From: Candidatus Omnitrophota bacterium
GTDB lineage: Bacteria > Omnitrophota > Gorgyraeia > 2-01-FULL-45-10
Direction of reading: 5' to 3'
Length of the DNA stretch: 41,856 nt
Assembly: GCA_016935115.1 (NCBI GenBank)
Contig: JAFGRN010000014.1
Location: forward strand, 1 to 41,856
The notes below the pieces were generated by a model. It was not told the DNA's origin and ran no database searches. It saw only the letters and a list, made by a program, of their open reading frames with translations. The translations under genes and the position numbers were made by a program. Positions within the stretch are counted from its first letter, which is position 1; the number at the start of each line of letters is the position of its first letter. Shown one piece after another: positions 13,628-41,760 of this stretch.

Positions 13628-13638
13628 CTCCTCCGCAG

Positions 13639-13763
13639 TAGCGAAAATATCCCCCGCTCGTACCAGGTATCTTTCGGCATACCTATAAGGGAAAGTGTTA
13701 CAAGGCTCCCCACCCGGGCTGTAAGGGCTGACTACGGATGAGAAGCCGGGGATATTTTTGCTA
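13639..13763. repeat. Intergenic palindromic repeat, element A (MITE/foldback-like)
   Basis: Near-perfect terminal inverted repeats TAGCGAAAATATCCCC (13639-13654) and GGGGATATTTTTGCTA (13748-13763); shares internal blocks GGTATCTTYCGGCA, AGTGTTACAA and CACCCGGGCTGTAAGGGC with element B. Confidence 0.85.
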
Positions 13764-15199: not shown

Positions 15200-16867
15200 A
15201 TGAGAAGATGGATAAATTTTATCATCGTAGTATTATTAATGTTTGGCATAACCTATGCCGCCGCGGCCGCGGCTGACGGAGATCTTCGCTGGGACGATGC
15301 CGCCCAATGGTCGACAAATGCCGATAGCGGCTGTTTTGTAAAGGTGAACGGATTCACCGGCGAAAACGATGACGGCCTTAGGATAGATTATAGACTGAAG
15401 CCCGAAGGCGGATGGGTCGCATTGTCGAAGGTCGTTATAGGCCGAATAGATCAAGATACCCCTGTAAAATTCCTTATTAAGGCATCATCTTCGGATGATA
15501 TAGAGATGAAGTTCGTAGATGTCGATTCATCTATCTTCGGCAAGAAAGTGGCGTTGAATAGATACGGCCGGTGGACCGAAGTGGTGATCTATCCCGGCAA
15601 TACTGATCACTGGTGGGGAGGCGACGACAACCTCGACCAGATAGTGACATTCGAGATCGCCGTATCGGGCAAAGGCTCAGGCAGGATCTTTATAGACGAG
15701 ATCGGGACCGGAAAAACCGGCACGGAGGCCAGTTTTGTGCAGGGAGGCCCGGCACTCGATCCGGACAGGGAGCTTGCAGGGATAGGTTTCAGGCAGCGCC
15801 GCGCCTCGGAGATGATGGCAGAAGACCCGCTTGTCGTCGAATATCTTAAGGTTATGCAGGACCGTTCGTCACCGGACAGGAAGCTTGTGCCGTCGATGGA
15901 AGATAATATGGCACAGACTTTTAATAACAGTATCGTCGCAATGGCATTTATACTGAAAGGCGAACGCGAAAGAGCGGAGCGCATACTTGATTTTTACGCG
16001 AATGCCACGAGAGTAAATAACGATGATCTTTATCTGCAGAACTTCTTCTATAAAGGCCAGCCGCGCGGATTTTACCAGTTTGTATTTCTCAATGACCAGC
16101 CGGGAACCGCAGCATACCACAACTCTGGTGATTCCGACAGGTGGATAGGGGATATGGCATGGCTGCTGATCGCCTACAAGTATTATGAAAAGGAATACGG
16201 TTCGGACAGGTATGGTAAGATCATAGGGCTGATAAAGGACCTCCTTAAATTTTATTATAAAGAAGAAGGCGGCGGCGGTTACATCCAGCACGGCTGGCGC
16301 CGGGGAGACAGTAAGCTTCATGAAGACTATGGCCATCCGGAAGCGAATATAGACTGTTATGCCGCCCTGAAACTTTGCGGCGAGGATGAGTATGCCGGGA
16401 AGATAAAGAAATGGATCGATGAGAATGTCAAGGGCAACAGCCTCGCCCTCGATAATTATACATGGCGCGTTCTTGCCTTCGGCAAAGATTACGAAGGCCT
16501 GCTCAATATACCAGAATACGATTTCAGGTACAGGAAGACGATGGATCATAAAGGCGCCAGGGTGGCGGGATTTTTTCATGGCCCCGATATCGAGATGGAG
16601 AATATCTGGGTTGACGGAACGGGCCATATGGCATGCGCCTTCATGGAGGTGGGGCAGTTGGAGCGCGGTTATTTCTACGCGAATCAGATGGATCCGATCA
16701 TTTTCGACAGGTATTTTTCCGGCAAGCGCACGAGGGCGCTTCCGTATACGCTTAATAAGGCCGGCGGTTATGATTGGGTCGATACGTCGAAAGGCTTTGT
16801 CTCATGCGCCGCCTGGTATATATTTGCCAAGAACAGATTTAATCCCATGACACTGGAGAAGAATTGA
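15200..16867 (+). CDS. Secreted protein: carbohydrate-binding-like N-terminal domain plus alpha/alpha-toroid glycosidase-like domain
   Basis: Signal peptide MRRWINFIIVVLLMFGITYAAAAA; beta-rich N-terminal part; helical repeats rich in W/Y/D (GDMAWLLIAYKYYEKEYG, NIDCYAALKLCGE, IWVDGTGHMACAFMEVGQLERGYFY). Confidence 0.6.
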   Translation: MRRWINFIIVVLLMFGITYAAAAAADGDLRWDDAAQWSTNADSGCFVKVNGFTGENDDGLRIDYRLKPEGGWVALSKVVIGRIDQDTPVKFLIKASSSDDIEMKFVDVDSSIFGKKVALNRYGRWTEVVIYPGNTDHWWGGDDNLDQIVTFEIAVSGKGSGRIFIDEIGTGKTGTEASFVQGGPALDPDRELAGIGFRQRRASEMMAEDPLVVEYLKVMQDRSSPDRKLVPSMEDNMAQTFNNSIVAMAFILKGERERAERILDFYANATRVNNDDLYLQNFFYKGQPRGFYQFVFLNDQPGTAAYHNSGDSDRWIGDMAWLLIAYKYYEKEYGSDRYGKIIGLIKDLLKFYYKEEGGGGYIQHGWRRGDSKLHEDYGHPEANIDCYAALKLCGEDEYAGKIKKWIDENVKGNSLALDNYTWRVLAFGKDYEGLLNIPEYDFRYRKTMDHKGARVAGFFHGPDIEMENIWVDGTGHMACAFMEVGQLERGYFYANQMDPIIFDRYFSGKRTRALPYTLNKAGGYDWVDTSKGFVSCAAWYIFAKNRFNPMTLEKN

Positions 16868-31989: not shown

Positions 31990-32473
31990 TAGCGTCAGAT
32001 CGGGCGATCTAGCCGCGGAGATAAAGAAGAGGGTAAGGGGCAAGGTCACGATATCCGCCATCGGCAACATAATGAGGGGCGATGACGGCCTCGGCCCGAA
32101 ACTGATAGAGATGCTGAAGGCCCGCAATGTGAAGGCGGGCCTTTTTGATTGCGGAACGGCCCCGGAGAATTATATCTTTCCAATGCTCACGACGCTGTGC
32201 GATACTCTCATCCTCGTGGACGCGGCGGACATGGCCATAGAGCCGGGGCTCGCCAGGGTGCTTAATGTCGATGATATAGCGAATGTCAGCTTCTCCACGC
32301 ACTGCCCGTCGCCGCGGCTCTTCATAGACCTGCTGAAGACTGGAAACGAAAACCTCAATGTCTTCGTCATATCCGTACAACCCAAAGATACCTCTCTCGG
32401 GATCCCATTGAGCGCGGAGGTCCTCAAAGGGCTCGAAACCCTCGCGGACGCGCTCACAGAAGCGCTTGCCTGA
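31979..32473 (+). CDS. hycI: Hydrogenase maturation endopeptidase (HycI/HyaD type)
   Basis: ISAIGNIMRGDDGLGPKLIEML, LFDCGTAPENY, LVDAADM, VFVISVQPKDTSLGIPLSAEVLKGLE. Confidence 0.9.
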   Translation: MSDNSVRSGDLAAEIKKRVRGKVTISAIGNIMRGDDGLGPKLIEMLKARNVKAGLFDCGTAPENYIFPMLTTLCDTLILVDAADMAIEPGLARVLNVDDIANVSFSTHCPSPRLFIDLLKTGNENLNVFVISVQPKDTSLGIPLSAEVLKGLETLADALTEALA

Positions 32474-32475
32474 TA

Positions 32476-32720
32476 GGGATTTTTCAGCTATCAGCTTCAG
32501 GTGGAAGTGACCAAAGCGATCCACCTGGAGCGACTGTCGTAAAAATGCGATACCTATAGGCGATATACCGGGACAAGGAAACTGCTCCATGGCTTATGTG
32601 TATGCAGGTTCATTGGCCATCGCATTTTTACCACAGCGAATTTACATGCCTAATGTAAATTCGCGGCAAGCGAAAGGTGGTCGCTTGGTCACATCTGTAG
32701 GGATGGGACCGAAAAATCCC
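32476..32720. repeat. Structured intergenic repeat, element D (nested hairpins)
   Basis: Ends GGGATTTTTC/GAAAAATCCC; 18-bp outer stem with two bulges; perfect 13-bp hairpin GTAAAAATGCGAT/ATCGCATTTTTAC; perfect 12-bp hairpin GCGAATTTACAT/ATGTAAATTCGC. Confidence 0.85.
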
Positions 32721-32738
32721 GAAAAGGGACGTTTTAGC

Positions 32739-32767
32739 TTGAATTTACGCGTGATATTATACATAAT
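32739..32767 (+). promoter_or_regulatory. Candidate promoter upstream of pabB
   Basis: TTGAAT - 17 nt - CATAAT, ending 6 nt before ATG 32774; no SD in the gap. Confidence 0.45.
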
Positions 32768-32773
32768 TGAAAT

Positions 32774-34171
32774 ATGCTGAGCGCGACTATAGAAGAGATC
32801 AAGGATCCGCCGGAACCGCAGGAGATATTCCGTTCGATGCACGATCGCGCCTGCGGCTTCTTCCTGGATAGCGCATGTGATCCGGAAAAACTGGGGCGCT
32901 ATTCGTTGATGGGATGCGACCCGTTCCTGGTATTCAGGTCCAAGGGTGATGCCATCATGTTGGAACGCCCCGGCCGCCCGACGGAGAAATTGACGGGCAA
33001 TCCTTTCCTTGTATTAAAAAAACTGCTGAAAAAATACCCCGCAAGGCCTGTAAAGGAGATTCCTTTTGCCGGAGGCGCCGTTGGATATTTCTCCTACGAC
33101 CTGAAGAACTTCATAGAGGACCTGCCGGACCGCCCGCCGGATGACCTTAAGATTCCGGATTGCATCCTGGGGTTTTATGATTCGGTCGTTATATACGACA
33201 ACCTTAAGAAGAGGTGTTATATTTCGGACATGGGAATAACCGGAGGGGCTTCGAAGCGTCTGGCGAAACTTATCCGGGCCGCTTCGCGTAAAGGGACAGG
33301 CCCGGAGGATTTTAATCCGCCCAGGAACGTGAGGTCAAATTTCTCGAAACGTTCATATATGGCCGCCGTCGAAAGGGCAAAAGATTATATCCGGAAGGGC
33401 GATATATATCAGGTCAATCTTTCCCAAAGATTTAAAGCCGTTCTCGCCTGCGGGGCATTCGGCCTTTATATGCGGCTGAGGGAATGTTCTCCGGCGCCGT
33501 TTGCTTCATATCTAAATTTCGGACAGGTGAAGATATTAAGCTCATCGCCGGAACGTTTTCTCTTTAAGAGGGGCGGCTATATCGAGACCCGGCCCATAAA
33601 AGGGACCAGGCCGCGCGGCGCCGATAAGGTTTCAGACGCGGCTATGGAAGCGGAACTGAAAGCCAGCCGGAAGGACATGGCCGAGCATATCATGATAGTG
33701 GACCTGGAGCGCAATGACCTGGGCAGAATATGCCGCTACGGCTCCGTCGGAGTGGATGAATCGGCGGTCATAGAGAAGTATGCAAATGTCTTTCATATGG
33801 TTTCAACGGTCTCCGGCACCCTGAAAGACGGAGTCGATCCCGTCGACTGCCTTTTGGCGGCTTTCCCGGGAGGGTCGATAACGGGAGCGCCCAAAATCCG
33901 GTCGATGGAGATTATCGAGGAGCTTGAAAATGTGAAGAGGTCCGTATATACAGGAGCCATAGGGTATATAGGTTTCGATGGCAATATGGATACTTCCATA
34001 GTGATTAGAACCTTACTGGTTAAAGAAAGAGACGCGTATTTCCAGGTGGGCGGGGGCATAGTTGCCGATTCCGATCCCGAAAAAGAGTATGATGAGACCC
34101 TGCATAAAGCCGCCGGGCTCATTGACGCGCTCGGCCTTGAATCGAAGAATAAGGAGCCGATCCCGGCATGA
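32774..34171 (+). CDS. pabB: Aminodeoxychorismate synthase component I
   Basis: Chorismate-binding fold; YIRKGDIYQVNLSQRF, ETRPIKGTRPRG (PIKGT favours PabB over TrpE), AAFPGGSITGAPKIRSMEII. Confidence 0.9.
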   Translation: MLSATIEEIKDPPEPQEIFRSMHDRACGFFLDSACDPEKLGRYSLMGCDPFLVFRSKGDAIMLERPGRPTEKLTGNPFLVLKKLLKKYPARPVKEIPFAGGAVGYFSYDLKNFIEDLPDRPPDDLKIPDCILGFYDSVVIYDNLKKRCYISDMGITGGASKRLAKLIRAASRKGTGPEDFNPPRNVRSNFSKRSYMAAVERAKDYIRKGDIYQVNLSQRFKAVLACGAFGLYMRLRECSPAPFASYLNFGQVKILSSSPERFLFKRGGYIETRPIKGTRPRGADKVSDAAMEAELKASRKDMAEHIMIVDLERNDLGRICRYGSVGVDESAVIEKYANVFHMVSTVSGTLKDGVDPVDCLLAAFPGGSITGAPKIRSMEIIEELENVKRSVYTGAIGYIGFDGNMDTSIVIRTLLVKERDAYFQVGGGIVADSDPEKEYDETLHKAAGLIDALGLESKNKEPIPA

Positions 34172-35019
34172 ACAAAGTCTGGCTGAATAAGAAGATAATT
34201 GACGCTGAAAGCGCTTGCATACCGATATCGGACAGGGGTTTCATGTACGGTGACGGCGTGTTTGAGACAATGCGTTCTTATTCCGGAATGGTTTTTAAGA
34301 TAGACGCCCATCTTGACAGGTTGTTCAATTCCCTTAAAGTGGCGAAATTTTCCAGTCCTTACGCAAAAGATTATCTGAAGCGGGAAATATACAGGCTGCT
34401 TGACGCCAATCGCCTTAAAGAAGCGTATATCCGCCTAATGATAACCAGGGGCGAGGGGCGATTCGGGATGGAACATAAGGATAGATTTATTCCTAATACC
34501 GTGATAGTCGTAAAAGAGTTCCACAGCTACCCGGCGCGCGTGTACGCTAAGGGTATAACGGCCGGAGTGGTCGATATAAGGCAGAATGAGCTATCACCGG
34601 TTTCGGGGATCAAATCCTTGAACTTCATTAATTACATCCTGGCGAGGTTTGAGGCGAAAGAGAAAGGTTATGACGAGGCCATTCTCGCGAATTCCAGGGG
34701 GCATATTGCCGAGGCGACCACGAGCAATATATTCATGGTGAAGGGAATGGGGCTTATAACACCATCCCCCGATAGCGGTATCCTGCCCGGCATTACAAGG
34801 ATGGTCGTGATGCAGCTGGCCAGGCGCCGCGGGATATTCGTCAAAGAGATGGCCGTTACCAGGCGCGAGCTATATAATTCAGATGAGATATTTCTCACCA
34901 ATTCACTCTCCGAGGTCCTGCCGGTAGTTGCCGTTGACGGGAAGAGGATAGGCCGCGGCGTTCCCGGAGAAACAACCCGGCTCCTTCACAGCCTCTACCG
35001 CAAAGAAACCTCCCGATAG
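34168..35019 (+). CDS. pabC: Class IV aminotransferase, probable 4-amino-4-deoxychorismate lyase
   Basis: PISDRGFMYGDGVFETMRSYSG, IKSLNFINYILARFEAKEKGYDEAILANSRGHIAEATTSNIF; next to pabB. A branched-chain aminotransferase cannot be fully excluded. Confidence 0.75.
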   Translation: MNKVWLNKKIIDAESACIPISDRGFMYGDGVFETMRSYSGMVFKIDAHLDRLFNSLKVAKFSSPYAKDYLKREIYRLLDANRLKEAYIRLMITRGEGRFGMEHKDRFIPNTVIVVKEFHSYPARVYAKGITAGVVDIRQNELSPVSGIKSLNFINYILARFEAKEKGYDEAILANSRGHIAEATTSNIFMVKGMGLITPSPDSGILPGITRMVVMQLARRRGIFVKEMAVTRRELYNSDEIFLTNSLSEVLPVVAVDGKRIGRGVPGETTRLLHSLYRKETSR

Positions 35020-35031
35020 AGATATAATTTG

Positions 35032-35663
35032 TAGCAAAAATATCCCCTGTGCCCCCGCTCCAGTTAAGCCATAATCCAAAGTTATGTTCGCACCGGGTAT
35101 CTTCCGGCACAGGGGGTGAAGTATATTACAAAGCGACCACCTTCCCATAGTCAGCCCTTACAGCCCGGGTGCATCGCGGGGACGTGGAAATTCCCCTGCG
35201 AGGAATTTCCACTCGGAAAGGTCGCTCGCTCTCCCGCCAAATAGGCCGGATGTCAAGCAGAGTATTTTAATATGTATTTGGCGGGATCCATGCCACGCCC
35301 TACGACTTTCGACGCCCCGCTCAACACCCGGGCTGTAAGGGCACTAATGATAAGCTCCAGGTGAGTCGCTTTGTAACACTTTCCCTGTATGCCGGAAGAT
35401 ACCCGTTACTCTCTCCCTGAAGCAAAAATATCGTATGGGGTGTCCCCAAATGGACCGTCCCCTGTTGCGGGGTGGCAGAACTTTTGGCACCTTGCTGGAG
35501 CGAATCTCTAAAATTTCGATACCTATAGGCGCTACAGACTTTATCATCGAAATTTTAGCGACAGCGAACGAGGAAGCCTATTGACGAGTGAGCGGCGAGC
35601 GAAAGCAAGTGCCAAAAGTAAATGCCACCACTGAGGGGATGGGGGCCCGGGGGATATTTTTGC
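35032..35663. repeat. Composite structured intergenic repeat, element B
   Basis: TAGCAAAAATATCCCC (35032-35047) and GGGGATATTTTTGC (35650-35663) ends; about 80-bp imperfect palindromic arms 35095-35171 / 35325-35404; internal direct copy of AGCAAAAATATC at 35421; D-like cruciform at 35471-35629. Confidence 0.88.
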
Positions 35664-35674
35664 CCTGATAGCAT

Positions 35675-35704
35675 TTGACCTTAATAGCATATATATGATA
35701 CAAT
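35675..35704 (+). promoter_or_regulatory. Sigma70-like promoter before the Kdo/heptose cluster
   Basis: TTGACC - 18 nt - TACAAT, 27 nt before ATG 35732, which has an SD-like GAAAGGA. Confidence 0.65.
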
Positions 35705-35731
35705 AGCGCCCGAATTTCGAAAGGAAAAATT

Positions 35732-36679
35732 ATGCCTCATAAGCCAAGATCGAGGGCGGATCTGAGCAAGATAAGGACTATTCCGCTCAATGCCCGCAAG
35801 TGCAAGGTCTCCATAGGCGATTTTGCCCATTCTGCGAAGAAAGGCGAGAGTTTCAGGAAGTTCTATGATTCCCTTCCCAGGATACTGGCCGCCCAGAGCC
35901 TAAGAGCCGTTTCTGATGCGGTAGTCACCGCATACAGGAAGGGGAAGATGATCATTATAATGATGGGCGCGCACGTCATAAAATGCGGAATCTCGCCTCT
36001 TATTATCGATCTCATGAAGCGGGGCGTCCTGAAGGCCGTGGCATTAAACGGCGCCGGCGTAATTCACGATACCGAAATAGCGATGATCGGGCGCACAAGC
36101 GAGGATGTGGGCGAGGCTATTCTCGACGGGTCATTTGGCATGGCAAAAGAGACGGCGGGATTTATAAATCAGGCCATAAGCGCGGGGTTTAAGAAGGGAA
36201 TCGGCATAGGCGAATCCGTCGGAGGCGCTATCGTCAAAGCGAAGTTGCCTCACAGTAATATGAGCATATTGGCCAATGCTTATAAGCTTAATGTACCTGT
36301 GACCGCGCATGTCGCGATAGGCACCGACATAATACACCAGCATCCTTCGGCGAACGGCGCGGCGATAGGCGAGGGCTCTCTCCTCGACTTCAAGAACTTT
36401 ATCTACAGTGTTTCCAGGCTGGAGGCGGGAGTACTTATCAACCTGGGATCCGCCGTGATATTGCCGGAAGTGTTCCTGAAGGCTATTACGGTGGCGCGCA
36501 ACCTCGGCCATAAAGTCGATACGCTTACCACCGCAAATTTCGATATGATAAGCCAGTACAGGCCGCATCAAAATATACTGTCGAGGCCTACGTCTAAAGG
36601 CGGCAAGGGTATTAATATAATAGGTCACCACGAAATAATGATCCCGCTCCTGTACCGTTCGATAATAGAGAGAATATAA
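35732..36679 (+). CDS. Deoxyhypusine synthase-like protein of unknown function
   Basis: GAHVIKCGISPLIIDLMKRGVLKAVALNGAGVIHDTEIAMIGRTSEDVGEAILDGSFGMAKETA is reminiscent of bacterial DHS-like NAD-binding proteins. Confidence 0.55.
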   Translation: MPHKPRSRADLSKIRTIPLNARKCKVSIGDFAHSAKKGESFRKFYDSLPRILAAQSLRAVSDAVVTAYRKGKMIIIMMGAHVIKCGISPLIIDLMKRGVLKAVALNGAGVIHDTEIAMIGRTSEDVGEAILDGSFGMAKETAGFINQAISAGFKKGIGIGESVGGAIVKAKLPHSNMSILANAYKLNVPVTAHVAIGTDIIHQHPSANGAAIGEGSLLDFKNFIYSVSRLEAGVLINLGSAVILPEVFLKAITVARNLGHKVDTLTTANFDMISQYRPHQNILSRPTSKGGKGINIIGHHEIMIPLLYRSIIERI

Positions 36680-41679: not shown

Positions 41680-41760
41680 CGGCAAAAATATCCTCCGGGC
41701 CCTGCCGCTCCAGTTAAGCCATAATCCTCGTTATGTTCGCACTGAAAATATCTCCCCGCC
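41680..41760. repeat. Intergenic repeat, element C (copy probably truncated by the window end)
   Basis: GGCAAAAATATCC then CCGCTCCAGTTAAGCCATAATCC-tc-GTTATGTTCGCAC, nearly identical to 35055-35093 of element B; second motif-like GAAAATATCTCCCC at about 41744. Confidence 0.8.

Follow-up and report, generated by a model that had tools for sequence, protein, structure and literature searches.

The window, i.e. the whole stretch of 41,856 nucleotides analyzed here, is contig 34 of an Omnitrophota genome of 1.395 Mb in 79 contigs. It carries two copies of a single repeat family that has not been described before: element D, which lies between HycI and pabB, and the right half of the composite element B. 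The features of both are as follows.

32476..32720, plus strand: the whole of element D, bounded by its outer inverted repeats GGGATTTTTC (32476-32485) and GAAAAATCCC (32711-32720); also delimited by outer complementarity in other copies and by the empty site in six relatives
32513..32687, plus strand: core of D, 170.7 bits with covariance model R1
32507..32526, plus strand: P1 left arm, GTGACCAAAGCGATCCACCT
32527..32533, plus strand: GGAGCGA, which forms the junction and the 5' side of the purine internal loop; largely invariant across the 42 aligned copies
32534..32551, plus strand: P2 left arm (covariation alignment)
32552..32569, plus strand: conserved one-sided internal loop ACCTATAGGCGATATACC (alignment of copies)
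32570..32584, plus strand: P3 left arm, absent from B and other short forms
32604..32618, plus strand: P3 right arm (42-copy alignment)
32619..32636, plus strand: P2 right arm (covariation alignment)
32636..32664, plus strand: P4 hairpin GCGAATTTACAT-GCCTA-ATGTAAATTCGC (sequence and covariation alignment)
32663..32676, plus strand: conserved GCGGCAAGCGAAAG, 3' side of the purine internal loop (sequence and 42-copy alignment)
32675..32692, plus strand: P1 right arm, AGGTGGTCGCTTGGTCAC
35034..35663, no strand: composite element B; inside its outer inverted repeat GCAAAAATATCC..GGATATTTTTGC lie the 35483..35616 core and, as the left half on the minus strand, another palindrome family
35113..35380, minus strand: left half of B, sharing P1 and CTGGAGC with D and differing in the inner hairpins; relatives on contigs C78, C26, C58, C18, and others
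35483..35616, plus strand: core of the second copy (right half of B), 91.4 bits with R1; a short form in which P3 is absent and P4 is of the tandem-G.A type

Fold, covariation, and distribution of the repeat

The repeat is ~245 bp long, and we gathered ~80 copies from Omnitrophota genomes, usually several to at least 14 per genome. All copies share one fold: P1 forms a long outer stem, followed by an internal loop of purines (GGA/GGA) and a three-way junction from which P2, capped by P3, and P4 extend. Across 42 aligned cores, the sequence of P1 varies among most copies, and CTGGAGC opposes GCGGAAGG across this stem as a three-by-three purine loop whose two closing G-C pairs are invariant. P2 comprises 12-14 pairs and is followed by the conserved one-sided loop ACCTnnnGGCGATnTAGA and then by P3 (GGCCAATGAAAC/GTTCATTGGCC), while P4 occurs either as a plain hairpin with the loop GCCTA or as a tandem-G.A stem (GAGCGAGGA/TCCGAGCGAG). 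In the P4 of one relative (G018), the doublets between the G.A pairs have changed from GC/GC to GT/AC with the G.A pairs unchanged. Judged from the sequence, these stretches probably form tandem G.A pairs, the alternative being that they are unpaired. Against dinucleotide shuffles, D folds with a z of -7.7 as RNA and -9.7 as DNA.

The words on which the original prediction was built are found in both copies, i.e. TGGAGCGA (32526/35496), ACCTATAGGCG (32552/35521), and GCGGCRAGCGAAAG (32663/35592), and the two 13-bp hairpins it quoted, GTAAAAATGCGAT/ATCGCATTTTTAC and CTAAAATTTCGAT/ATCGAAATTTTAG, are likewise in place. Both ACCTATAGGCG and GCGGCRAGCGAAAG have exactly two perfect matches in the window, and ACCTATAGGCG occurs 8 times in the genome vs once for a reversed control. 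The layout that it gave for D and the right half of B is indeed one fold, but D has a P3 (32570-32584/32604-32618) that B is without, and the fourth stem is a plain hairpin in D and carries tandem G.A pairs in B. Its view of the conserved words as unpaired also needs correcting: ACAGCGAA is partly paired as the start of P4, and TGGAGCGA and GCAAGCGAAAG are opposed as the purine loop with its two closing G-C pairs.

That the stems differ in sequence yet stay paired was borne out by the 42-copy alignment, where 42 of the 54 base pairs have changed on both sides. Covariation in this alignment is 0.363, compared with 0.116 in column shuffles and at most 0.113 in slid structures, well above both controls and in line with the selected fold that had been proposed, whether of a structured ncRNA or of a protein-bound DNA hairpin. 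Double-changed cells number 309, whereas shuffling the columns leaves 84.6 ± 9.2 and sliding the structure leaves 48-91; one-sided changes amount to only ~22 cells. Since column shuffles disregard relatedness, these double changes are not counts of independent events; however, slid controls, which retain relatedness, are also far lower. An 84-copy alignment, fitted to R1 and thus biased toward the model by construction, gives 47 of 54 pairs, with 899 double-changed cells vs 249 when shuffled. The arms of P1 also pair best with their own partners, scoring 15.5 compared with 6.7 when arms are swapped between copies; within a single genome (G016), the scores are 17.8 and 7.0, despite left arms that are only ~50% identical. 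What evolution preserves is the fold and not the letters, as paired arms change yet stay complementary, and an observation made on two copies is far stronger once dozens are compared.

DNA searches locate other copies in the same genome on contigs 18, 23/48, 35, 43, 51, 52, 62, 68, and 73, with several at contig ends, as expected of repeats, which break assemblies. Of 37 genomes examined, 20 have DNA matches, and all 20 are from the same taxonomic family; inside this family, 19 of 22 relatives match by DNA and two of the other three (G018 and G021) by model. The covariance-model search of related genomes that had been suggested found more copies with the same fold: R1 matches 12 of 191 Omnitrophota genomes, of which ten belong to the same family, one to the same order (G023), and one to another family of the class (G081), with at least 14 copies in the richest genomes. 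With each GTDB species represented by one genome, a pattern scan picked out 24 stretches, every one with Omnitrophota or Omnitrophica in its title, and no match to the core pattern was found in the viral contigs scanned. The repeat is restricted to one bacterial family plus two outliers. As anticipated, it has no match in Rfam 15: at the gathering score the whole window yields one tRNA only, and a permissive search to E = 5 over 32400-35740 gave no relevant match. Among open-licence papers, we found none on such repeats in Omnitrophota.

Insertion sites, orientation, and nested palindromes

HycI and pabB are adjacent, at most a few dozen bases apart, in six relatives (G001, G002, G003, G004, G006, and G016), and D separates the pair in the window genome. 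Two copies of G003 behave similarly, one (L040) having no counterpart in G004 or G006 and the other (L171) being absent from G002 and G000; the L171 site in G001 holds a rearranged relative containing a REP-like hairpin. Filled and empty versions at three loci represent insertion polymorphism between relatives, a trait of bacterial MITEs. The repeat is mobile on an evolutionary scale, as seen from presence and absence between species, and its copies have inserted between adjacent genes; because the flanks have diverged, insertions are assigned to lineages without exact ends.

Terminal inverted repeats, NNATTTTTCGGC..GCCGAAAAATNN, are present at many copy ends, with an outer complementarity of 2.3 pairs vs 1.0 for shuffled partners, which is another MITE trait. 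By eye, no target-site duplication or TA is common to 29 terminal pairs, and the right boundary varies between genomes; in the loci read, no transposase gene lies between the element ends. A Y1/RAYT partner was considered and rejected, given that PF01797 is present in G012 and G025, which have no copies, and missing from G014 and G015, which do (copies as detected). Some loci are common to genera, one example lying downstream of pabC in both G000 and G015, where the core has opposite orientation, and these possibly reflect retained function, hot spots, or turnover.

Among the 56 copies with genes on both sides, 22 are sense and 29 antisense to both neighbors, 5 are divergent, and none is convergent, with genes called by a simple codon model and some flanks short. 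Copies are often near the stop codon of the preceding gene, and none lies inside a called gene. We rejected a terminator role, as no copies lie between convergent genes, and also a riboswitch-like cis element, as orientation is mixed and the strand signal (see below) is independent of transcript direction.

The outer frame and junction words of D are also found with other inner hairpins, namely on contig 8, in a second element on contig 62, and in the left half of B (minus strand), and further palindromes sit inside P3 loops (L046/L075 and the second copy in L148). The repeat thus belongs to a wider collection of palindromes that these genomes carry nested in one another. REP-like hairpins are separate sequences that insert into the repeat, for example at L207 and within B.

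Other palindromes lie in the window and in related genomes. The REP-like hairpin within B is GGGGTGTCCCCAAATGGACCGTCCCC (window ~35435-35470), and a related stretch on contig 20 of G000 (15530-15557) adjoins a Y1 (RAYT-like) transposase gene (15781-16125), so that RAYT hairpins seem nested within the larger element. The outer repeat of B (GCGAAAATATCCCC..GGGGATATTTTTGC) also has relatives in further palindromic elements of the window, at 13638-13763 and 41682-41742. At L104 (pabB of G002), L204/L205 (G002), and L203 (G016), ~60-105 extra bases break the protein matches with the frame kept open, which suggests palindromic inserts within genes, like Rickettsia palindromic elements.

Strand asymmetry and competing explanations

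Isolated mismatches on the element's plus strand comprise 33 G.T vs 4 A.C (binomial p ~1e-6, for cells that are not fully independent), and antisense copies alone have 22 G.T vs 1 A.C on that same strand. Equal numbers would be expected if both DNA strands mattered alike or if arms were corrected neutrally; as the excess includes antisense copies, the plus strand itself appears to be selected, and not the operon read-through mRNA. Selection thus appears to act on the element's own strand as a single strand, whichever way it faces its neighbors, and part of the excess could come from cytosine deamination, if the plus strand is the more exposed one. G.T and A.C looked equal in P2-P4 at first, but five of the C.A cells belong to the position that closes the P4 loop; once P1 is paired without bias and only isolated mismatches are counted, G.T is clearly higher. 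Neither this asymmetry nor mobility with empty sites had been reached by the original prediction.

For comparison, the RNase P RNAs of four of these genomes have 20 G-U vs 1 A-C. The wobble share of paired cells is ~0.9% in the repeat vs 6.4% in RNase P RNA (p ~6e-10, cells treated as independent), and we read this low share as a single strand held to Watson-Crick pairing more strictly than an ordinary RNA is, which favors ssDNA over RNA without being decisive. As a separate observation, the RNase P RNAs of this bacterial family are between ~350 and 570 nt long, and compared with the Rfam consensus they carry additional hairpins or long insertions (L179-L197).

D and the right half of B probably belong to a small interspersed repeat that is structured, mobile, and non-autonomous, and that is specific to one Omnitrophota family. 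In its plus strand, the outer repeats and P1 make up one long imperfect stem that leads through the purine internal loop to the three-way junction with P2/P3 and P4, and a putative trans-acting enzyme would recognize the conserved loops GGA/GGA, ACCTnnnGGCGAT, and GCAAGCGG on this folded single strand. Stems required merely as stems would be free to drift in sequence, and the compensatory pattern would arise, we propose, because only foldable copies propagate. The folded molecule would be ssDNA that is exposed when DNA is replicated or transferred; an RNA intermediate is less probable. The covariation, the own-arm pairing of P1, the interspersed copies, the empty sites, the presence of both orientations, the strand bias, and the switch of P4 forms with covarying doublets all favor a mobile repeat. 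Against it, movement shows only as presence or absence between species, pairing is kept in every old copy, exceeding the need of a neutral relic, Y1 genes do not track copies, the 29 terminal pairs are without a consistent target duplication, and some loci are common to genera. It is doubtful that this is a new kind of mobile element, i.e. one that would have to form a branched single strand, of ssDNA or RNA, in order to transpose or function, whose stem arms could be exchanged on the conserved junction with its purine loop, and that an undescribed enzyme would move.

The same strand bias, similar in kind to that of RNase P RNA, would also fit a putative structured RNA gene or an RNA-based mobile element (SINE-like or guide-RNA-like), with its own promoter or one close by driving transcription of the plus strand, which would act as RNA and be multiplied as a by-product. 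Long conserved loops, the three-way junction, and independence from the direction of neighboring genes agree with this; however, the wobble share is far below that of RNase P RNA, no Rfam family matches, and there are many copies per genome with no conserved neighbor gene, which leaves an RNA role a minority possibility. It is very improbable that the repeat works in cis on mRNA, as an attenuator, processing site, or terminator selected within each host operon: sites between codirectional genes, often close to a preceding stop codon, would suit it, and ERIC and Correia elements can act in this way (PMC3049150, PMC2229807), but antisense copies outnumber sense copies and still favor G.T on the plus strand (22:1), opposite to what read-through transcripts predict, and none between convergent genes means that they are not terminators. 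Lastly, template switching in replication could copy one arm onto the other with no selection, and the large excess of double over one-sided changes, with few intermediates, and the abundance of nested palindromes in these genomes are in keeping with such correction. It would, however, leave equal G.T and A.C remnants rather than 33:4, and loop and junction words are conserved across genera, so we give neutral correction little credence.

Relation to known repeat families

REP/REPIN are short hairpins spread in trans by a RAYT (Y1) enzyme working on folded single-stranded DNA. Y1 genes are present in these genomes as well, but the repeat is several times longer and branched, and the presence of Y1 does not track copies. 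Rickettsia palindromic elements are similarly families of palindromic repeats dispersed through a genome and often lie inside genes, whereas the repeat described here is in no called gene. Palindromes of the ERIC/BOX type have been known for decades, and to our knowledge, fold selection and the selected molecule are not clear for most of them. Here, dozens of compensating copies, filled and empty sites, and a strand mismatch signature make the choice between RNA, ssDNA, and neutral palindrome testable. They also call for caution, in that strong covariation and many intergenic copies alone do not prove an ncRNA gene.

The repeat resembles ERIC/IRU of enterobacteria (and Correia/NEMIS and RUP), which are small, intergenic, multi-copy palindromes inserted between genes in both orientations, and ERIC-type transcripts are predicted to fold strongly (PMC2229807). 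By contrast, no sequence relation was found (no Rfam match), the repeat is ~245 bp long and branches at a three-way junction, where those elements form a single long stem loop, neither TA termini nor target duplications were seen, and the phylum is another. BOX elements of Streptococcus pneumoniae (boxA-boxB-boxC) are modular structured repeats with exchangeable parts and a predicted RNA fold (PMC3049150). The present repeat is also modular and structured with exchangeable parts, but whole stems swap inside a common outer frame (C8, C62, and the left half of B) and no related insertion sequence was identified. With no sequence or model match, and with neither target duplications nor a partner transposon found, membership in any named family is unsupported, and the most that the data allow is that the repeat is a branched, modular variant of bacterial small interspersed repeats (ERIC, BOX, RUP; PMC3049150, PMC2229807).
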